A stretch of 64,000 bases of DNA from Chloroflexota bacterium (lineage in GTDB: Bacteria > Chloroflexota > Anaerolineae > Anaerolineales > E44-bin32): positions 1 through 64,000 of the forward strand of contig JADFRG010000004.1 in the NCBI GenBank assembly GCA_022561385.1. The letters are read 5' to 3'. The notes under the pieces are model-generated. The model was given only the letters and a program-made list of their open reading frames with translations. It was not told the DNA's origin and ran no database searches. Shown piece by piece: positions 1-17,823 of the stretch; the stretch's first letter is position 1; the number at the start of each line of letters is the position of its first letter. The translations under genes were made by a program, and so were the position numbers.

Positions 1-572
1 CAAGCCTTTCACTTACTTTCGATGAATCTGATGAGGACAGGGGCGGTCCAGAGCTTGCGCGAATGTGCAAAGCATACTCAAAGGCAACTCGGGACTATTC
101 AGTGCCGATAGTATTTGTATTCGACAGAGACGAGAGTAATGCTCTAAAAAGTGCGCTGCTTGATAAAAACGATTTTCATGACTGGGGCCGGAATGTCTAC
201 TCGGCGGCACTTCCCGTGCCAGATCACAGAACAGACTCTCCGGAAGTGTGTATCGAGCTCTTATACTCCGATGATGAGATCACCGTTGTTGACGAGCACG
301 GTCATCGTCTATTCCTCAGTTCTGAATTTAATCAAGAGTCCGGCAGACACAACGTTGAAGGGTTGGTGTACTCCTACCCGGGGAAACTCAGGAATCAGAG
401 ATTGGTCGTCATGGATAATGACGTTTTTGACCTATCGAATAGGAACGTGGCGCTTCCCAAGATTCAATTTGCCAAATACGTGCTTGAGAGTCACAAAGGC
501 TTCGACGGTTTTGACTTCTCTGGGTTTGCCAATCTTTTTGAGTCAATGCTTCGGATTGGTTTGGAAGAGTAG
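1..572 (+). CDS. TOPRIM-like protein, C-terminal part (start lies before the window)
   Basis: The reading frame is already open at base 3 and runs to a TAG at 570-572, so the gene starts upstream; the first Met in view (base 63) is probably internal. A hydrophobic beta-strand followed by Asp-Arg-Asp (PIVFVFDRDE, bases 105-134) looks like the acidic DxD strand of a TOPRIM fold. The following pattern (NVYS..LPVPDHR, then CIELLYSDDEI and GHRLFLSSEF) resembles a family of uncharacterised bacterial proteins often found in accessory or defence regions. The catalytic N-terminal Glu strand is out of view. The TOPRIM call is an inference from one motif and recall of the family. The neighbours are also accessory. 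Confidence 0.5.
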   Translation, partial: SLSLTFDESDEDRGGPELARMCKAYSKATRDYSVPIVFVFDRDESNALKSALLDKNDFHDWGRNVYSAALPVPDHRTDSPEVCIELLYSDDEITVVDEHGHRLFLSSEFNQESGRHNVEGLVYSYPGKLRNQRLVVMDNDVFDLSNRNVALPKIQFAKYVLESHKGFDGFDFSGFANLFESMLRIGLEE

Positions 573-942
573 CTTATCAGGGGCCAAAGTCCCAAGGTCC
601 CAAGAGGAACCCCTATTTGCAGAGCCGACTTTTCAGTTAGTAAAACAGGCAATCAACTAAATTGAATCGGCCTTCAATTAATCCTGGAAAATTGCCATCT
701 TCGGGCGCGAGAATGCCCGTTCTCAATACCTATCTAGCTGCCCACTTCCGAATGCTATTGGGAACAGGTCCTATAAGGTTCCATCAGGCGCAGCTCGATG
801 ACTGAGTAAGGGATGGGGGAGCTGGCCAGCTACCCAATGCCGAGCGCATGACTTAGGATAACCCGCGTGGAATCCGACCCCGGCCCCTTTGATTGTTGGC
901 CAAACTTAAAAGTTCACGTGCTCGCCGGGTCACGAAAAAACA

Positions 943-980
943 GGCGCAATGCCCCGCCGCAAATCGGGGGCTTTGCGTTT
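943..980 (+). terminator. probable rho-independent terminator
   Basis: The arm GCAATGCCCCG pairs with CGGGGGCTTTGC across a short loop, and a T-rich tail (TTTCTATT) follows on the plus strand. It could end transcription of the TOPRIM-like gene 370 bases upstream. Confidence 0.4.
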
Positions 981-1142
981 CTATTGAACTCGAAGCCGCA
1001 ATGCGGATCTCCGCAGATTTCATTCGAAGAATCGCCTATATGGCTGAAGGCGTCGCTGGGCCGATGTCAAGGCCGTCACAGCCACCAAAACCCAGAGCCT
1101 CGGTGTTCTACTGCAACCTTCTGTATGTCCAGCTTTCGTATG

Positions 1143-1172
1143 GACGGGGTGGGCCCGACGGCCCACCCCGTC
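1143..1172 (-). terminator. perfect 13-bp hairpin behind the nuclease gene
   Basis: GACGGGGTGGGCC at 1143-1155 and its exact reverse complement at 1160-1172 flank a 4-base loop. It lies 15 bases past the stop of the minus-strand nuclease gene. No T-run follows, so it may be a transcript-end stabiliser rather than a classical terminator. Confidence 0.5.
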
Positions 1173-1186
1173 TCACTGCTTGCTTG

Positions 1187-2956
1187 TCACTGCGCCTTGA
1201 CTGCGTTGGTCCACGCCTTCTTGTAGTCGAGGACTGCCTCAGCGAAGTCACCGGCAGCGATATTGGCTACTGCGTCGGCCATGTTTCCTTGCGCCTGGGC
1301 GATCCGGCCCGGGTCGCCGCCGCCGAGCATGGCGATCGTGAGCTGCTTCAGAACTAGCTGGCGGTCCGCATCGAGCAGCGCGTCGATTGACGCCTGCGCA
1401 TCGACTGTCGCCACCTTTTGAAGCTCCTGGACCGCCTGGTGCTCACGGTCGAAGACGTGGTTGCCTGTCTTCGAATCGAGCGTCGACAAGTCGACCCACC
1501 AGTCCGGATTGAGGCTCTGGTTGATGCGCTCGATCGCCTTTTCGATAAACTTGTCATCCTGGTTATCGCCGGTCGGCAACATTAGTGTGAGCTCGGCTGC
1601 CGCCGTTTCCTTCAGCGTGATCGCCGGCGTGAGCCCGAGGCCGATCACAATAGGATCGTGGTCCGACGATCGGAATTCATCCGGGTTGAACAGCAACGGC
1701 TGGTTGAAGTCGTTGTAGTCCAGCCCTCGAGGCTCGTCAGCGTTGACATGCCAGAAGGCTGCTCCTGTTACCTGTGGGGTCATCGTCTCGCTCGAAAGCC
1801 CGTGGTCCAGGTAGCCGGACTGGCTGAAGAAGTTGAACGTGTACGCCCCGTCGCCGAAGCCGGAGCCCACGAAGGCCTCAATGAGGTCCGTGTAGCCGCC
1901 GGCCTCGATCGTGACAACCGGATTTTCTTGGGCATAGGCATTCAGGTCACCTATGACTAGGTAGTCGTTGTCGCCGCTGCCAGTTGGGTCGGTGGCAAGC
2001 CAGTCGACGATCGCTTGTGCCGCAGCCGTGCGGGTCAGGTTGCAGTTGCCCTGGCCATCGCCGATGTCCGGGTCGCCCACGCCGTCGCAGGGAGAGCCTA
2101 TCGACTTCAAGTGGTTTACGCCCACCGTGAATACGGCGCCGGTTGCATTCTCGACGAACGACTGCGTCAACATCGGCCGGTTCAGCGTGTCGTTGAACAA
2201 CGGGTCGTCGCTGCTGTCGAGCACCTCAAAGCCACCGAGCGGCGTAACCGAGGCCGGCTGGTAGAGCAGCGCCACCCGAATAGCGTCGCTACCAATCGCG
2301 CCGGTGGCGATGAATTCATACGTCCCCGGCGCGGTGGCGGCGTTGAGCCCCGCCACCAGGTCGGCGGTCGGCACGTCGCTGGGGTGGTTTTCGATCTCCA
2401 TCAGGCCCACCACGTCGGCGTCGAGTTGGCTAATCGCATCGACCAGCTTGTCGCGCTGCCGGGTGAACTCGGACGCCGTGTCGGCCCCGCGGCAGCCCTG
2501 GTTGCTCAGGGGGCCGCAGATGGGTCCAGCGTTGTCGAGCGTGGTGAAGTAGTTCAACACGTTGTACGCTGCCAACTGGATTGTGCCGCCGACGCTGGGC
2601 ACGCCAGGCCGCATGTTGACCCGGGTGAAGTTCACCGCCTGGGTCGGGTGGATCTCGTAGCTACCGAAAGCGAACCCGACTGCACCGGTAATCCCCGGGA
2701 TCGTGTCGCCCGTCCGCAGCGTGTTACCCGGCCCGAGATAGGGCGGCAGCGGCAGCGGGTTCTGCACCGTAGTGCCATCGTCGATCTGGATCCGGCTCCG
2801 GTCATTCAAGTCCTGCAGCGCGATCGCCGGTGCACCCGGCGCTACTACATTAGTCGGGTTGTCGAGCGGTGCGCCCACCGACAGGTCGACCTCGCCGAAG
2901 CGGGCCTGGTTGAAGTTCCCGGAGGCGTAGAGGGTCTGGTTGATGGTGATCTCCAT
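1187..2956 (-). pseudogene. ExeM/NucH-type extracellular nuclease, N-terminal half missing
   Basis: The product has the endonuclease/exonuclease/phosphatase fold of secreted ExeM-like nucleases: LAAYNVLNYFTT near residue 128, VVGLMEIENH (metal-binding Glu), LVIGDLNAY (Asp-x-Asn) and SSDHDP near the end of the domain. A helical tail of about 140 residues of unknown role follows. Family members normally begin with a signal peptide and further domains before the segment that starts here (EGMEITINQTLY). The frame upstream of the ATG stays homologous-looking for only nine codons (T-E-T-V-Q-G-V-E-G) before a stop, and the DNA then belongs to the M41 peptidase gene. I infer a truncated, probably non-secreted remnant made by deletion or rearrangement. 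An assembly join is the alternative. Confidence 0.75.
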
Positions 2957-3414
2957 GCCCTCAACACCCTGGACTGTTTCAGTTCACGCTCGTCAAGCAA
3001 CAAGTCGGCATTTTTACCTATGGCGAGATGGCCCCCGGGCATACTCAGGGCTGAGGCTACGCGAACGTAAAGCAAGCTCAAATAGGCCTCCAGCTCCTGT
3101 GGACCTCCTATAAGATAATCGGCCAGGAGTACGGTTACCTCGTTATCTTGAGACGTTCCCTCTGGTTCTTCATCAAGAATCATCACCTGGGCTAGTCCAC
3201 CTGCGTACATCACCATTACACGATTTTCGATAAACCTTCGGGTTCGTGCATCGGTGTTTATGTCGGGTTGAAAGCTCCCGGGTAGAGGGCGAGACATTAC
3301 CCTCCCCCAGCTGTCGTCGTCAGGAATGATCGAAACCGTGTTGAATGGGACTTGCCTATCGATAGCCATCACTGCATGGCCAGCCTCGTGATAGGCGGTG
3401 CTTTGCTCACTCAC
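2845..3414 (-). CDS. M41-like zinc metallopeptidase with a replaced C-terminus
   Basis: The first 12 residues contain the HExxH zinc site as AYHEAGHAV, followed by VSIIPDDDSWGRV. This is the layout of stand-alone peptidases related to the FtsH protease domain (M41) without an AAA module. Homology-like sequence continues to about residue 145 (LLLDERELKQSR, near base 2980). After that the frame runs through the 5' end of the nuclease gene in another frame, giving an Arg/Ser/Pro-rich tail up to the stop at 2845. Only the last few native residues are likely lost, so the enzyme may still work. Start ATG at 3414. Confidence 0.6.
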   Translation of the reverse strand: MSEQSTAYHEAGHAVMAIDRQVPFNTVSIIPDDDSWGRVMSRPLPGSFQPDINTDARTRRFIENRVMVMYAGGLAQVMILDEEPEGTSQDNEVTVLLADYLIGGPQELEAYLSLLYVRVASALSMPGGHLAIGKNADLLLDERELKQSRVLRAWRSPSTRPSTPPGTSTRPASARSTCRWAHRSTTRLM

Positions 3415-3560
3415 GATCTCCTACGATCGGTCCAGCAAGCCAGCAACATTTAGTTTTGATGATCACCTTTGGCTTCCGATAGTGCTTGGCCCGGAATAAT
3501 CAGTCTACACCCTCCCGGTAGCACCAGGCAGAATAGCCTTCATAGATCACGGCTGAGGAC

Positions 3561-3809
3561 TTAGTCCGAGGAATCGTTGTCATCCAGATCCGAACCGCTT
3601 TTAACAATTCCAAACATGTGAGTCAAGTTATCGTTGAACGAATCAATCGCGTGCCTCGCTGCGGCGCCGTTATTCAAGAGCCACAAGAGCTGCTTTTCGT
3701 CATTTTTGTCAAGATTGAATTCGTTCAACAGCAAAACCTCTGCCTGCGAAAGGTATGCTTTGGCCTCCGCCAGGTTCTTATTGATCTTGGCATAATTTGC
3801 TATGGTCAT
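3561..3809 (-). CDS. small hypothetical protein of the replication operon
   Basis: An 82-residue acidic protein starting MTIANYAKINKNLAEAKAYL. It is mostly helical in appearance, with an Asp/Ser-rich end (SGSDLDDNDSSD). I do not recognise the family. I chose the ATG at 3809 because the longer frame upstream overlaps the preceding gene and reads as low-complexity sequence. It follows the 71-residue gene by 29 bases on the same strand, so it is probably the third gene of the same operon. Confidence 0.45.
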   Translation of the reverse strand: MTIANYAKINKNLAEAKAYLSQAEVLLLNEFNLDKNDEKQLLWLLNNGAAARHAIDSFNDNLTHMFGIVKSGSDLDDNDSSD

Positions 3810-3838
3810 TTCAATTCTCTGGGGTGTACGGCTCCAGC

Positions 3839-4054
3839 TCAGTGTAACTTGGAAGGCCCCACCAGCACCGAGCCCCCGGTCCGCACCAGTTCTGCAGGCG
3901 GATGCCCGAAGGTCCACTCGAACGCTGTGATGCAGTCGTCGTCGCTGCAGGCTACCGAGTAGGCCAAGTAGTCATCCCTCGAATGCGTCATCCTGGAAGA
4001 GGGCGTAGCCTTCGGAGGGCTGGGCGTGAATTCGAGTCGCAATTGCGAAGCCAT
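3839..4054 (-). CDS. 71-residue protein coupled to the replication gene
   Basis: The ATG at 4054-4052 overlaps the TGA of the upstream replication-like gene (TGA at 4056-4054) as TGATG, a classical stop-start coupling signal, which is the main evidence that this is a real gene. The C-terminal half (ITAFEWTFGHPPAELVRTGG, then VLVGP) reads like a small globular fold. I do not recognise a named family. In lambda the gene next to O encodes the helicase loader P; this product is far too short to be called an equivalent on sequence. Confidence 0.5.
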   Translation of the reverse strand: MASQLRLEFTPSPPKATPSSRMTHSRDDYLAYSVACSDDDCITAFEWTFGHPPAELVRTGGSVLVGPSKLH

Positions 4055-4869
4055 CAGCTGTCCCAAAAGTCCGCAAACTGACCGACCGCGTATCTGTGCC
4101 TAGCGTCGGCGGCGGAACCATCGACCCCATACCAGTCCGGTACATCGTCAAACCACGAATTGCCCGCGTAGCTGACAAGCCATGCCCCCGGCTTGCGGAC
4201 CTTCCCCAGGGCAAAGCCCTTTTCCGCAATGGGAAGCCACTTCTCTAACCAGTCCTTTGACTGGAGGGTTTCCAGTTTGAGAAGGGTTTTCTCAGAGATA
4301 TTGAAAGAATGCGAAACAACCACGTTGTTGTTAATGGTTCTCTCTGTATTGTTCTCTTTGTCTTGTTCTCTATCGTGGGGCATTTTCGCCCGACTCCCGG
4401 TGCGCTCTCGCCCGACCCCAGGGGCAATCTCGCCCGACCCCAAGCCCGTTTTCGCCCGACCTTCGCCCTCCATAAATGCCCTTAGTGCTTCCTGGCTCAA
4501 GGCGTAAACGATGGTACGCCCTGGTCGGATAGCGAAGAAGAACTCGCCCGACTCCCGAATCTTGCTCGACCAGTGTTTTATCTTGTCCGGGGTAGCACCT
4601 AGTTCCTTGGCAAGTCGCCCCCTTTCGGCAAAGCAAACCCCGTACTCCAACCGGGTGTAATCACGAATTGCCGCCATCAGTAGCGCCACTCCGGGTCCGT
4701 ACTTCGGAGGCCAGGACTTATTGACCTGGTAATACGGCCCTTGCTTACTACGCGCGATCTGCCTCAACCGTTCGGCCTCTGCAGAGGCCTGGTCCGCCCG
4801 CTCTCGAAGTCTTTCAACTTCGCCGCCCTCGGTTGTCGGGACTATGTACTCTGTATGTTGTACAGTCAT
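4054..4869 (-). CDS. replication-initiator-like protein with an internal iteron array
   Basis: A 271-residue protein starting MTVQHTEY; the in-frame ATG at 4869 has GGGATGGA just upstream. Residues about 18-45 form a charged coiled coil (EVERLRERADQASAEAERL). Residues about 50-140 look like a winged helix: a tract of helices, then GRLAKELGATPDKIKHWSSK (recognition-helix style) and a beta wing. Residues about 141-170 form a linker encoded by a 22-bp DNA repeat array, and the Asn/Thr-rich stretch after it is encoded by an AT-richer repeat. The C-terminal part contains WLEKWLPIAEKGFALGKVRK. This order matches phage or plasmid initiators with an origin inside their own gene. The replication role is inferred from this architecture, not from a family match. 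Confidence 0.55.
   Translation of the reverse strand: MTVQHTEYIVPTTEGGEVERLRERADQASAEAERLRQIARSKQGPYYQVNKSWPPKYGPGVALLMAAIRDYTRLEYGVCFAERGRLAKELGATPDKIKHWSSKIRESGEFFFAIRPGRTIVYALSQEALRAFMEGEGRAKTGLGSGEIAPGVGRERTGSRAKMPHDREQDKENNTERTINNNVVVSHSFNISEKTLLKLETLQSKDWLEKWLPIAEKGFALGKVRKPGAWLVSYAGNSWFDDVPDWYGVDGSAADARHRYAVGQFADFWDS
4335..4470. repeat. origin-like array: four 22-bp iterons and three 14-bp repeats
   Basis: CGCCCGAC occurs at 4387, 4409, 4431 and 4453, exactly 22 bases apart, each inside a unit of the form YTYTCGCCCGACyyc (units 4383-4404, 4405-4426, 4427-4448, 4449-4470). Beside them are three 14-base units at 4335, 4349 and 4363 sharing TKGTTCTCT, in a locally AT-richer tract. Neither 22 nor 14 is a multiple of three, so the repeats change reading frame within the gene and cannot be explained as a protein repeat. 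A fifth out-of-phase CGCCCGAC lies at 4545. Iterons next to an AT-rich repeat tract is how many initiator-dependent origins are built. Confidence 0.6.
4851..4865. promoter_or_regulatory. dyad over the first codons of the replication gene
   Basis: CTGTA at 4851-4855 and TACAG at 4861-4865 form a perfect 5-bp dyad around TGTTG, two bases inside the coding start at 4869. A repressor or the initiator itself could bind here. The spacing is CTGT-N7-ACAG, one base short of the enterobacterial LexA box. Confidence 0.35.
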
Positions 4870-4889
4870 GTTCCATCCCAAATGCAGAA

Positions 4890-4930
4890 AGGCCGGCACC
4901 TCGCCAAGCAACCTGGCGATGTCTCGGCCT
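4890..4930 (+). terminator. imperfect hairpin with T-run
   Basis: Two 17-base arms match at 14 positions (AGGCCG...TCGCCA against TGGCGA...CGGCCT), with TTTTT at 4934-4938 on the plus strand. It lies between the replication gene and tRNA-Arg. I see no plus-strand gene that needs it, so it may mark an element boundary. Confidence 0.3.
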
Positions 4931-5080
4931 GTGTTTTTGTCGCCCCCGCGACTGGCACGTCAACAGGGGAATTGCAGAAGGTTAGGAAATTGTCTTGGGA
5001 AAAGATGCAGGGCCGGGTAGCACCCCGACCCTGCGGTAACGCAGGAGATTGGCCCTCTCTCGAAGACACAGGCTCCCAGG

Positions 5081-5155
5081 CGCGCCCGGCAGGACTCGAA
5101 CCTGCGACATCCGGATTAGAAGTCCGACGCTCTATCCAAGCTGAGCTACGGGCGC
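5081..5155 (-). tRNA. tRNA-Arg (TCT)
   Basis: The minus strand folds into a full cloverleaf: a 7-bp acceptor stem (GCGCCCG with CGGGCGC), D-arm GCTCAG..GGATAGAGC, anticodon loop CTTCTAA giving TCT, and T-loop GTTCGAGTCC. The discriminator base is G and no CCA is encoded. It lies at the edge of the accessory segment. Confidence 0.92.
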
Positions 5156-5171
5156 ACGTTATTCTGTTGTG

Positions 5172-5242
5172 TGCCCCGGTAGCTTTGTTGGCAGAACCTA
5201 CGGCTTAGAAGGCCGGTGCTCTATCCGTTGAGCTACGGGGGC
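5172..5242 (-). pseudogene. damaged second tRNA-Arg (TCT)
   Basis: The 5' two-thirds match a tRNA-Arg: acceptor GCCCCCG, D-arm TAGCTCAACGGATAGAGC, and anticodon arm CCGGCCTTCTAAGCCG (TCT). After GTAGGTTCTG the T-arm is replaced by CCAACAAAGCTA, which lacks the TTCGA loop, and the closing acceptor strand (CGGGGCA) pairs imperfectly. Loss of only the 3' part fits damage by an integration or excision event at the tRNA 3' end, or simple decay. Confidence 0.65.
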
Positions 5243-5287
5243 AGTTCCCCGACACCTCAATCTTATACCTTTTGACCGGCCGTGAAT

Positions 5288-5719
5288 CTAGTGTGCGGGG
5301 CGAATGCCCTTATATATGCGAGGTCCCGACAGAGTGCGCAAAATCATTCGCGCCGGTCGCCCGATCCTTTTAGCAAGCTCCTCGGGTCTTAAAGGAGCGT
5401 TTCCGTTGGCCAGGAAGGCACGGAAGACTCCGTTCACCAGGCTTGTTTGGGGCGTGAGATAGTCGTCCTGCTGCGCACAATGTGAGATCAGGATGTGTTC
5501 GATTCGACCCAAAACGGTTACTTCCGCAGTCCGGAGATCGACATGGTCGACCTGCACCTTGGGGTCGATTTCTGCATAGATTTCCTGGTGCTCCCGGCAC
5601 AGGTGGCTCCTCAGGTACACACGGAGATCCCGATCCGAGCGATCCCACCACTCGTAGTCGATATGGAAAGCAGTTTCCAGAGTAGGCCTGACCAGTGAAG
5701 GTGGAACGGCGGTGCTCAT
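5288..5719 (-). CDS. conserved-looking hypothetical, coupled to the 532-residue gene
   Basis: A 143-residue protein (MSTAVPPSLVRPTLETAFHI...). The central part is acidic with a His/Cys pair (SHLCREHQEIY), and the C-terminal part looks like a helix-turn-helix (LRPEELAKRIGRPARMILRTL). I chose the ATG at 5719 because it overlaps the upstream stop as ATGA and has GGAAAAAGG before it. I do not recognise a family. Coupling suggests it acts with the upstream product. Confidence 0.65.
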   Translation of the reverse strand: MSTAVPPSLVRPTLETAFHIDYEWWDRSDRDLRVYLRSHLCREHQEIYAEIDPKVQVDHVDLRTAEVTVLGRIEHILISHCAQQDDYLTPQTSLVNGVFRAFLANGNAPLRPEELAKRIGRPARMILRTLSGPRIYKGIRPAH

Positions 5720-7314
5720 GCCTTTTTCCACTCGCTCTCGTTCAGTTTCCAATATAGATCGCCCACGGGCTCGTAATATGGCTGGGTGACCAACTCGGCA
5801 AAAATCGGACCGGGAGGCAATCGTCTTATGACGTTCACCGCCGAATAAAGAGACTTTGCGTGCACGGTACCTTGCGGATTGAGCTTAGCAAGCTCACGAA
5901 ATACGTAGACGGTCAGCCTTTCAGGCGACATTTTCCGCTGCTCGCCGCTCTCCCACGCCTCATCCAGGGCCTGCTCGTCAATCTGCCCCACAATCATCCG
6001 CTCGTCATAAGAGGTCCCAACCGGGTGTTTTAACATTGTGAAGCCGATATTCCCGCCTTTGTCGATGGTTGCTGTCCGTATCCAATCGTTCCGCTGCCGA
6101 GGTTCCATGGCCCGAAGCACCACTTCTCCCTCCGTTTCAGACGGCGTAATTTGGATCAGCCCGCCTGCGGGCACCGAATTGCTGCTGTACCAATTGCCCA
6201 GACCGTATACGTACCGCTCCTTTCGAACAACCCATCCTGGAAATCGATCACCCGTGCGGCCGTCGACAAGCACGAATCGGATCCGAGGCGCTTCATAGGC
6301 CCTCGGGAAAAGCGGTTGCAGTCGCGTCGACAGCGGCAGCGTGCCGGCTTTGCGATGCGGGAACAGGATTGGCAGGGTGATTTCGGTCGCGGCGGCTGGT
6401 TCCGGAGCTTGCAGCTCACTTAGTTCGTCGTCCAGGCTCCGTTCAAGATCCAGCAATTCGTCCGTCAGCCGTTCTCGATCGTACTTTTTGGGTGTATAGG
6501 CGAGCCTGAGGGGAATTTTCAGCGCGTCCTTCGGCTCCAGCCGTTTCAAGTACCAAAGAATCTTTCCGGCCGGTCCAACCTCATCGAATCGCTCATCTTC
6601 CTGAAGCGCGAAGTCGACGGAGAATTCCGTGAGCAACGGATCCATTTCGGGCGGCAATTCCATATGCTCCACAAGGGATCGCGTCAGGAGCGGCCCGCCT
6701 TCTGCAACATCCAGGACCGCTTCTGCAAGATTGAGATGTCCCTCGTTGATGTCAGCTACGAGGCCACTATGAAACCAACGTCCTGCGATCCGCACGGTGT
6801 CGGCGCTTTCCTGTAGCCGCGCCTCAATCTTTCGGGCGATGGGAGGCCCATAGCGATCTTGAATGAATTCAGGCGATACGTCGGATTCGATCTCACCGGC
6901 CTCGGGTCCGGGCGAATTGAGAACGTGTTCCTGGAAGCGAGCGGCGAACTCTTTCGGTTTGTCGCTACCTTCGAATTTAACCCGGATCACGTCGAAGGAA
7001 GGTAGGTCGGGGTTGTTCGCCTCACGGATACTCGCCACGGTGCCGATCCGATTGTCGAGCAGTCGAAATACGAGACTTTCACCCACTTCATACTCGCCAG
7101 CGGGAACATAAGTCTTAAGTTCGATATTTGACCGAATCTCTTGCTCGATTCGAAGCAAGTCCAGGCGATGCGCCACCAACGCGCGAGACATTTCCTCCTT
7201 CGTGAGCGGAACTTCGCGCTCAAGAAGCAGGTTATCTATGAATTCAAGGTCTTCGTCCGTGACGTCGAATTCTCCCCAGTAGAGTTCTGAGGCGGGCGAG
7301 GATGCGAGATGCAT
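5716..7314 (-). CDS. large unrecognised protein, probably nucleic-acid related
   Basis: 532 residues, no signal peptide or membrane segment. The N-terminal part has a helix-turn-helix feel (EFIDNLLLEREVPLTKEEMSRAL). Residues about 70-150 look like an all-beta module (YEVGESLVFRLLDNRIGTVASI), and residues about 340-440 form another beta-rich domain (RFVLVDGRTGDRFPGWVVRK). I know no name for this family. It is the first gene of a two-gene minus-strand operon and is divergent from the DUF2007-like gene. Confidence 0.7.
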   Translation of the reverse strand: MHLASSPASELYWGEFDVTDEDLEFIDNLLLEREVPLTKEEMSRALVAHRLDLLRIEQEIRSNIELKTYVPAGEYEVGESLVFRLLDNRIGTVASIREANNPDLPSFDVIRVKFEGSDKPKEFAARFQEHVLNSPGPEAGEIESDVSPEFIQDRYGPPIARKIEARLQESADTVRIAGRWFHSGLVADINEGHLNLAEAVLDVAEGGPLLTRSLVEHMELPPEMDPLLTEFSVDFALQEDERFDEVGPAGKILWYLKRLEPKDALKIPLRLAYTPKKYDRERLTDELLDLERSLDDELSELQAPEPAAATEITLPILFPHRKAGTLPLSTRLQPLFPRAYEAPRIRFVLVDGRTGDRFPGWVVRKERYVYGLGNWYSSNSVPAGGLIQITPSETEGEVVLRAMEPRQRNDWIRTATIDKGGNIGFTMLKHPVGTSYDERMIVGQIDEQALDEAWESGEQRKMSPERLTVYVFRELAKLNPQGTVHAKSLYSAVNVIRRLPPGPIFAELVTQPYYEPVGDLYWKLNESEWKKA

Positions 7315-7350
7315 TCTAGGAATTTATGAGTTGGGGTAAAGGCGCCGCAT

Positions 7351-7356
7351 TATACT
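7351..7356 (+). promoter_or_regulatory. -10 box for the DUF2007-like gene
   Basis: TATACT lies 17 bases before the ATG at 7374, which predicts a leader of about 10 nucleotides. No good -35 is visible. Confidence 0.35.
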
Positions 7357-7373
7357 ATAGGGGCGATGTTGAA

Positions 7374-7634
7374 ATGGTTATGAGGGGCCTCGAAGAGCCG
7401 TCACACAAACTCGTTTCGGTTGGATTGGCTTACGGCCAGGTCCAGGCCGAGATCATGAAGGGCATGTTGAACGCCAACGAAGTTGATGTTTGGTTGTCCA
7501 ACGATTCCGCAGGTTTAGCGATCGGATTCGGGATCGGTCCCATGGCCGAGGTCGATATCATGGTCCGGGCCGAGCAGGCGGAGCAGGCCCGTTGGATTTT
7601 GGAGCAAGATGCTGAGGCAGAAGCCGACGCCTAG
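7374..7634 (+). CDS. DUF2007-like small protein
   Basis: 86 residues from the ATG at 7374; an in-frame ATG two codons later is equally possible. The pattern AYGQVQAEIMKGMLNANEVDVWL with a following PMAEVDIMVRAEQAEQARWIL is typical of DUF2007-type proteins. These have a small alpha-beta fold related to PII-like signalling proteins, and their role is not well defined. The stop codon shares the palindrome CTAG with the stop of the convergent peptidase gene. Confidence 0.7.
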   Translation: MVMRGLEEPSHKLVSVGLAYGQVQAEIMKGMLNANEVDVWLSNDSAGLAIGFGIGPMAEVDIMVRAEQAEQARWILEQDAEAEADA

Positions 7635-8980
7635 GGGAATTCCGCTTGGATCCAGTTAAGTGGATCGACGGGCACACCTCCCACCCAGACCTCCCAGTGT
7701 AAGTGCGCGCCGGTAACGCGGCCGGTACCCCCAACATAACCGATCGTTTGCCCGGCCGTCACAATCTCGCCGGGCTCCACCAAACTCTGCGATTGGTGTA
7801 GATAGCCGGTATAAATCCCCCAGCCGTGATCGATGTAGGTCGCGTTCCCCCGCACGGTCAAGAGATTTGAAAAGGCCACCCTTCCGCGCGCGCTGGCCAG
7901 CACAGGAGTGCTGCTACTCCCGAACAGATCCAGCCCGGTGTGATAGTAAATAAACCCGCTTCCGTTATAGCTGCGACGCGTGCCGAAAAAAGAGGGAAAC
8001 GTCTCGAAATACGTGGAGGGATAAACAAACTTCCCTTCCCAGAGTTTCTCCGGAGTCACCATGTTCACGACCCTGGCGATCAGCTCGTCCTCCGGCTGGG
8101 TGTTTGCTGGATCCAGCGTCTCAGGCGGCACCTGCAAGAATTCCTGTCCGTATCCCGCCGCTCGAAGCAGCAATGGTTGACTGTAACGCGTGCCATCGTC
8201 GACCATCAGTTCCAGTTCCACCAGCCCCGGTTCCGCCAGCGCGTGGATCCCTTGTAGGGCGAGTGCCGATGCCTCTCCAGCCACAATTACTTGTAATGGC
8301 CGGTCTCCGAGACGGCCGGTGATTTGGTTCGGGCCCTCGAATTGGATGGTGAGAGTCCCTCCCTGCGTCGCGCTCTCTGGCGACACGGTGACCGAACCGA
8401 ATTCCGGCGGTAAAGCAATCGTAACGTCTCGATCCCCGGGCGCATACATAAGCTCGCCCGTCACAAGCCACCGCCGACCCTCTATCCCGTTGCCATTAAT
8501 CAACCTCCAGGAATCTATGCCCAATTCGGCAGAGAGCTCAAGCATACTTTGACCGCGAAGCGTTGAGATTCGTTCTGAGGTCGGCATTCCTCCCGCGCCT
8601 TCTAGGTAGACGAGTGGCTGCCCGGAGTAGAGTCGTTGGGGATTGAGGACACGGTTCAGCTGGCCCAGCTGGTCTTCGCCCAGACCGTATCGCAGCGCCA
8701 GGCTGCCCAACGTCTCTCCGTAACGGACAGGGTCAAATTGCAGAGTCCCCGCAAGGCCCGGGTAACCCGGGATGACCAGGGTCTGACCCGGGAAAATCGC
8801 GGAGGGGTCTTCAATGTTATTGGCCTCCGCCAGCTGCTCGACCGGTGTGCCAAATATTTGTGAAATTGAGAATAGGGTGTCTCCGGCCTCAACTACATAC
8901 ACCGGACCGTCTTGTTGAGCGGTAGCCAAGGCTGAACTGGTCAGCAGGCTAAATACTACGAGGACAACGCCGACACGCAC
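7631..8980 (-). CDS. secreted LysM / M23-family peptidase
   Basis: The signal peptide is MRVGVVLVVFSLLTSSALA. A clear LysM follows (YVVEAGDTLFSISQIFGTPV), then two weaker LysM-like repeats, a beta domain, and a C-terminal M23 (LytM) domain with zinc-site motifs HTGLD and HLHWEVW. The first His of HLHWE is the usual catalytic partner. The product would cut or bind peptidoglycan outside the cell. I chose the GTG at 8980 because a TATAAT box ends six bases before it and the signal peptide then begins at residue 1; a GTG at 9013 would place that box inside the gene. Confidence 0.88.
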   Translation of the reverse strand: MRVGVVLVVFSLLTSSALATAQQDGPVYVVEAGDTLFSISQIFGTPVEQLAEANNIEDPSAIFPGQTLVIPGYPGLAGTLQFDPVRYGETLGSLALRYGLGEDQLGQLNRVLNPQRLYSGQPLVYLEGAGGMPTSERISTLRGQSMLELSAELGIDSWRLINGNGIEGRRWLVTGELMYAPGDRDVTIALPPEFGSVTVSPESATQGGTLTIQFEGPNQITGRLGDRPLQVIVAGEASALALQGIHALAEPGLVELELMVDDGTRYSQPLLLRAAGYGQEFLQVPPETLDPANTQPEDELIARVVNMVTPEKLWEGKFVYPSTYFETFPSFFGTRRSYNGSGFIYYHTGLDLFGSSSTPVLASARGRVAFSNLLTVRGNATYIDHGWGIYTGYLHQSQSLVEPGEIVTAGQTIGYVGGTGRVTGAHLHWEVWVGGVPVDPLNWIQAEFP

Positions 8981-8986
8981 GCGGCG

Positions 8987-8992
8987 ATTATA
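8987..8992 (-). promoter_or_regulatory. -10 box directly before the M23 peptidase start
   Basis: TATAAT on the minus strand ends six bases before GTG 8980, so the transcript should start at or next to the start codon. Confidence 0.45.
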
Positions 8993-9070
8993 GCGGTTTC
9001 GGGCTGCCCCCACTGGCGCGAAACCGCGACTGCACAGCCAGCCCCGTCTGCATACCCTTCCTTCCGTGTT

Positions 9071-9478
9071 TTATTCGACCCGGCCCAGGATTTTTTCTAC
9101 GCTTTCGAGCAGCTCCTGGGGGCCGAACGGTTTCGTGATGTAGTCGTCTACTTTGGCGATATGTAGTCCGAGGACCTTGTCGATGGACTGCGCCTTCGCG
9201 GTAATCACAATCACGGGGATCTCACGCAGAGATTCGTCCGACTTCATGCGCTGGTACACTTCCCAGCCGTCCATATCTGGCATCATAAGATCCAGCAGGA
9301 CCAGATCGGGCTTCTTCTGTTGAACCTTTTCCAAACCTTCCAGCCCCCCGTTCGCCCCCTCCACTATGAATCCGCGGCGGCCCAATATGAGCTGAACGAG
9401 GTCAATCATCTCCTGCTCGTCTTCGATACAGACGACGAGTTTACTTTTTTGGGGCGCGGTCCCATTGCCAATAGCCAC
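9071..9478 (-). CDS. stand-alone response-regulator receiver protein
   Basis: About 135 residues forming a single receiver domain: an acidic pair (CIEDEQEM), the phospho-acceptor Asp in LVLLDLMMPDMDGWEVY, Thr in VIVITA, and the Lys in DDYITKPF. No output domain follows, so it probably works by protein contact in a phosphorelay. The start is uncertain; I use GTG 9478, because sequence upstream of it does not look like protein. Confidence 0.82.
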   Translation of the reverse strand: MAIGNGTAPQKSKLVVCIEDEQEMIDLVQLILGRRGFIVEGANGGLEGLEKVQQKKPDLVLLDLMMPDMDGWEVYQRMKSDESLREIPVIVITAKAQSIDKVLGLHIAKVDDYITKPFGPQELLESVEKILGRVE

Positions 9479-9654
9479 GCAGAAAAGTTTACACCAAGGA
9501 TTCGGAAGACCGCAATGAACCGTGGTCCCATTAAACGCACAAGGTCGCCACATTCATGGCGACCAAGGCGAGAGTGGAAACACCTAAAGCGGAGGTTGCC
9601 GCTGTTAAGGTGCAGCCGGATTATGGCATAAATAGTCTCAATTGCGACTGAATT

Positions 9655-9687
9655 GAAAGGTGTCTGAAAGGTGGCTGAAGGCTAGCT
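9655..9687. repeat. three tandem 11-bp repeats
   Basis: Units GAAAGGTGTCT, GAAAGGTGGCT and GAAGGCTAGCT stand head to tail at 9655, 9666 and 9677. An 11-bp period puts each unit on the same helix face, as in binding sites of OmpR/PhoB-type regulators. They lie about 175 bases upstream of the receiver gene. Confidence 0.5.
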
Positions 9688-9873
9688 GAAGAGGATGTTT
9701 ACGAAGGCCGCTACCGTATACGCCAGGCCGAACAGGTTCGCAGCCAGGCCAAAAAGGCTCAAGGCCAAAAAAGTCAGACGAATCGGCCTAGTCACTGCGA
9801 GCGTCCGCGGCAGGAAATGAAGCGACAACCGACGGTCTAAGGGCAGGCATGGGATCCCTGTGCGGGCGAGCAT
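9682..9873 (-). CDS. possible small membrane protein
   Basis: A 63-residue frame from ATG 9873 with one strongly hydrophobic stretch (LTFLALSLFGLAANLFGLAY). There is no clear ribosome-binding site, and its 5' end runs into a perfect hairpin, so the call is weak. Confidence 0.25.
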   Translation of the reverse strand: MLARTGIPCLPLDRRLSLHFLPRTLAVTRPIRLTFLALSLFGLAANLFGLAYTVAAFVNILFS

Positions 9874-17730: not shown

Positions 17731-17823
17731 CGGGAGTGGATGGGAGTCGAACCCACCGCGGCCCGTTGACGGCCCGCCACCGATTTTGAAGACCGGGGAG
17801 CCCACCGGGGCCCAACCACCCCC
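17731..17823 (-). tRNA. selC: tRNA-Sec (TCA), selenocysteine tRNA
   Basis: The minus strand folds as a selenocysteine tRNA: an 8-bp acceptor stem (GGGGGTGG/CCACTCCC), a 6-bp D-stem with a 4-base loop (GGGCCC-CGGT-GGGCTC), anticodon stem CCGGT/ATCGG around CTTCAAA (anticodon TCA), a long GC-rich variable arm, and T-loop GTTCGACTCC. The extended acceptor and D stems are specific to tRNA-Sec, so this is not a Ser tRNA or a stop suppressor. It implies that this genome decodes UGA as selenocysteine. Confidence 0.92.

Follow-up and report, generated by a model that had tools for sequence, protein, structure and literature searches.

The DNA analysed here, referred to as the window, is a 64,000-bp stretch of a Chloroflexota bacterium draft assembly (94 contigs, 2,900,412 bases, completeness 92.12) and corresponds to positions 1 to 64,000 of a contig of 121,327 bp (G000:C48:1-64000). 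Since the window starts at contig base 1, its left end is the end of the contig, and the join between a nuclease gene and a peptidase gene described below lies ~3 kb from that end. A tRNA-SeC gene was predicted elsewhere in the window (17731–17823, reverse strand), which suggests the use of selenocysteine.

At the contig end, positions 3–572 (forward strand) encode the C-terminal part of an RT-Toprim fusion protein whose gene is cut by the end of the contig; it matched the PADLOC model RT-Toprim_I-C with an E value of 8e-21 over model positions 368–524 of 529, and the rest of the gene was not found in the assembly. This piece is followed by a dispersed repeat at 671–986, which occurs at at least eight other places in the same genome and at least nine in the sister genome G001, and at none in 29 other genomes searched, the same-genus genome G002 included, with no more than nine candidates scored in each genome. 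The repeat contains a well conserved module of ~160 bp (~708–868) and has a hairpin-like end; it matched no Rfam family and showed little covariation (1 of 43 pairs).

The frame at 1187–2983 (reverse strand, 598 codons) encodes an extracellular nuclease of the ExeM/NucH type that is truncated at its 5′ end. It matched NCBIfam NF033681 (ExeM/NucH; 455 bits, cutoff 300), which places it in the family, and PF03372 with 34.2 bits; solved structures gave no match at 1e-5. The NF033681 match covers model positions 99–545 of 546, so that the first 98 positions are missing. Matches to the nuclease were found in 17 of 101 genomes, the window's own included; the other 16 contain 19 homologous places, and the closest relative, in G009, is 59% identical over the core. 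In the endonuclease/exonuclease/phosphatase (EEP) core the conserved acidic, His and Asn positions are largely retained: of the columns conserved in ≥90% of relatives the window nuclease keeps 77 of 89, and of the conserved D/E/N/H columns 29 of 31, columns that may be equated with the residues named in ExeM. Together with a strong codon bias, the kept columns argue for a core that is not heavily decayed.

The first ATG of the nuclease frame lies at 2956, and its first firmly homologous codon at 2962. The similarity of the relatives begins at the residues E-G-M (2962–2954). Three residues before the E of this motif, all 17 relatives with letters at that point have E where the window has Q; nuclease homology therefore probably ends between 2971 and 2962. 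All 17 places that cover the start point continue upstream in frame for 175–503 residues, lengths that are limited by the fetched flank of 1,500 bp and by contig ends; the remaining two of the 19 (L005, L012) are interrupted by contig ends and were left out of this count. In the window, no secretion signal or front domain precedes the core in frame, and the upstream position is taken by an M41-like gene in another frame. A reading made from the sequence alone had held that the signal peptide and front domains were removed, and had named relatives with the same short frame as the finding that would overturn this; the missing 98 model positions and the upstream continuation in 17 of 17 relatives bear the claim out, and no relative with the short frame was found.

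A search of the window's own genome with the complete nuclease frame as query did not turn up the missing half of the gene. A query of 500 N-terminal residues from the G009 protein did not find it in G000, G001 or G002 either. As a positive control, this second query found nine of the ten nuclease-bearing genomes tested, one of them being its source; the single miss was G064, in which a contig end interrupts the nuclease. With the genome ~92% complete, the absence of the N-terminal half from the assembly falls short of proof that the genome lacks it.

Upstream of the nuclease on the same strand, a frame of 189 codons starts at GTG 3414, and its part at 2980–3414 represents a small M41-like peptidase gene that has lost its 3′ end. 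PF01434 matched the frame with 33.5 bits (cutoff 29.9), and alignment with relatives shows the HEAGH motif, which together identify it as Peptidase M41; the query included the out-of-frame tail described below, and the matched stretch is residues 3–92. A fused AAA+ ATPase domain as in FtsH was not found, the gene starting at the HEAGH region and Pfam listing PF01434 only. Among solved structures (PDB), FtsH chains alone were matched, at 0.01, and plasmid and phage records gave no match to the protein. Its similarity to small stand-alone relatives, the first compared being L023 (165 aa) and L024 (186 aa), reaches residue 145–150, or bp ~2980–2965, and by these comparisons the gene appears to belong with the short stand-alone forms. 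Lengths were surveyed in 88 loci (80 from one search, L023 and L024, and six viral), of which L023 and L077 are one contig; 87 ORFs were matched, and 20 of the 87 are shorter than 300 aa from stop to stop. Relatives aligned to residue ≥140 continue ~14–42 residues past position 145, mostly 14–18, a count from which L078 was left out, its alignment entering the out-of-frame tail of the window. The window gene thus lacks only its last ~15 codons. In their place stand ~45 out-of-frame codons, with which the ORF extends to 2845 in a reading frame other than that of the nuclease, and the codon score of this tail (2845–2979, reverse strand, inside the nuclease gene) is below that of all 33 reference ORFs.

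The points at which family homology ends on either side place the breakpoint between the two genes at 2962–2980 on the reverse strand, an interval of ~18 bases. Two unrelated genes, both truncated, are thus fused within less than 20 bp. This agrees with the sequence-only reading, which had set the junction of the two frames at ~2980 and had two unrelated genes of one strand joined within ~15 bases. The same reading had the M41 gene capped at the junction, and the gene does reach ~2980; it is not cleanly capped, lacking the ~14–42 further residues (mostly 14–18) found in its relatives and having gained the out-of-frame codons. Its description of the site as a precise rearrangement or assembly scar holds as to a scar of two genes within less than 20 bases, and rearrangement is only the more probable of the two origins, as weighed below. 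There is no run of N at the join, and no direct repeat was identified there from the joined sequence alone, the unbroken parent genes being unavailable for comparison. A 101-bp query across the join found, in its own genome, itself and a chance 14-mer only, and the exact 41-mer of the join had no match in viral_contigs or in genome_contigs, where near records may be omitted. A direct repeat at 1511 and 2930 (15 of 16 bases) was considered as a join repeat and rejected; it lies inside the nuclease gene and is, by our own estimate, at about chance level.

To the right of the M41-like gene lie an ORF of 118 aa with no assigned function (3561–3917, reverse strand) and a gene at 4054–4911 (reverse strand), the first being part of a variable stretch behind a tRNA-Arg gene and the second its tRNA-proximal end. 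The latter contains iteron-like tandem repeats of 22 bp in 3–3.5 copies (4377–4461); its family matches are weak, and it is putatively replication- or regulator-like by its position, its repeats and the neighbour found in G001. The replication-like protein was matched in two of 151 genomes, its own included, and gave no pattern match in viral_contigs. The tRNA-Arg gene (tct, 5079–5155, reverse strand) is the last gene of the shared backbone ahead of the variable stretch, and a degenerate second tRNA lies at 5172–5242. Window positions 4926–9835 align at 80% with contig C268 of the sister genome G001, which carries the same tRNA-Arg, and around that tRNA the two are 94% identical over 375 bp. 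Beyond this tRNA G001 carries a different replication-like gene (L035, 5112–5534) with its own 24-bp tandem repeats in coding sequence, a difference that shows the stretch left of 4926 to be variable.

No integrase was matched among five ORFs tested in 1–5079. An island boundary was sought as a second occurrence of the tRNA-Arg 3′ end, and the only match, with one mismatch, was in contig C7, where there is a tRNA-like match too. Neither an integrase nor a duplicated attachment core was thus seen at the tRNA-Arg in the assembled part, the contig ending 5 kb away. Separately, a 118-bp piece of G001 at L035 8–125, which lies at the opposite end of the contig with the shared tRNA-Arg, is 94% identical to window 4769–4886, and near it a 22-bp stretch matches, apart from one mismatch, the tRNA-Arg 3′ end.

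Base composition shifts abruptly at the join. GC3 was 0.82 in the nuclease, 0.54 in the M41-like gene and 0.51 in the RT-Toprim piece, compared with 0.66 (SD 0.04) in 33 reference ORFs, and the differing values of the three point to an island-like make-up. Among relatives, GC3 of the nuclease core ranges from 0.45 to 0.95 and tends to be higher in GC-richer loci, a range that rules out the separation in GC3 as proof of foreign origin.

The explanation we favour, at somewhat better than even probability, is that the join is a real scar of illegitimate recombination in a variable island linked to the tRNA-Arg, with two gene relics left behind. A small mobile-element-like stretch, comprising the replication-like gene, the 118-aa ORF and the M41-like gene, would adjoin the tRNA-Arg. 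An illegitimate recombination event, in the simplest case a deletion at ≤~18 bp of microhomology, would then have connected the M41-like gene near its end with the interior of the nuclease gene, removing the promoter, signal peptide and N-terminal half of the nuclease together with the last ~15 codons of the M41-like gene. The join would thus be present in the living genome, and both products would be non-functional relics. This explanation is preferred because the sequence on either side appears native to the genus (80% synteny with G001 to the right, the dispersed repeat to the left), and because the homology limits leave little room for a shared k-mer; the k values usually used in the final step of assembly exceed the overlap available at the join. 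The island-like make-up by GC3 counts for it too, as does the failure to find the N-terminal half in the own genome with a query that works in nine of ten nuclease-bearing genomes. Against it stand the contig end 3 kb away, the draft of 94 contigs, the abrupt change in composition, the absence of the join from the other records searched, the failure to find an attachment copy or, in the five ORFs tested, an integrase, and the lack of the left repeat in G002. Several of these points speak for an assembly chimera, an alternative with a smaller though substantial probability, in which the left ~3 kb with the RT-Toprim piece, the repeat and the nuclease would come from a different place or strain than the tRNA-Arg stretch, the two having been brought together near the contig end through a chimeric read or a false connection in the assembly graph. 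The draft state, the nearby contig end and the sharp change at the join, which fits a chimera as well, count in its favour, as do the failure to find a second example of the join and the missing N-terminal half, which looks as if the rest of the nuclease lay in an unbinned contig. A chimera is disfavoured by the lack of an N run, by the ≤~18 bp between the homology limits, within which a long k-mer could hardly be shared, by the finding that the join region, a 14-mer aside, occurs only once in its own genome, and by the marks of the same genus on both sides.

That the nuclease is a natural short form, starting at ATG 2956 and lying operon-like behind the M41-like gene, is highly improbable. 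The kept conserved columns, among them most candidates for metal and phosphate binding, and the strong codon bias, which speak for a core that is not heavily decayed, would suit such a form; against it, each of the 17 relatives that cover the point continues upstream in frame for 175 residues or more, the window frame begins within conserved family sequence after the loss of 98 model positions, and the M41-like gene is itself broken off at this point. Function also speaks against it. According to the work on Shewanella ExeM (PMC6085458), deletion of the YhcR-like (OB-type) domain that precedes the EEP core abolished activity, and activity remained when the lamin-tail domain was lost. If this domain effect carries over, the truncated nuclease would be inactive as well as unsecreted. 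The least probable of the readings, with hardly any weight, is that the join is both real and selected, with a cytosolic, front-less ExeM core placed behind an M41-like peptidase and beside RT-Toprim in a defence island.

With the recombination scar as the preferred reading, each component can be set beside its known counterpart. The nuclease resembles ExeM/NucH proteins (NF033681; Shewanella ExeM) in its EEP catalytic core, with a profile match well above cutoff from position 99; unlike them, it has no signal sequence and no lamin-tail domain, the region before the core is cut, and its C-terminal tail differs, as tails do among the relatives too. The M41-like frame shares HEAGH, an invariant Asp and the helical part to residue 145 with stand-alone small proteins such as those of Anaerolineales, Singulisphaera and Bryobacterales, and differs from them in that its last ~15 residues are replaced by the ~45 out-of-frame codons. 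Variable genomic islands and integrative elements linked to tRNA genes form a known class. The locus is like them in having a conserved tRNA and backbone on one side and, behind it, replication-like genes that differ between G000 and G001, and unlike them in that no integrase and no second attachment core were seen in the assembled part.

The feature is an ordinary one, probably a rearrangement scar, and a natural short nuclease is unsupported. In annotation neither frame should be entered as intact, be it the 598 codons as a secreted nuclease or the 189 codons as an M41 peptidase; the join marks a variable spot behind the tRNA-Arg in this genus.
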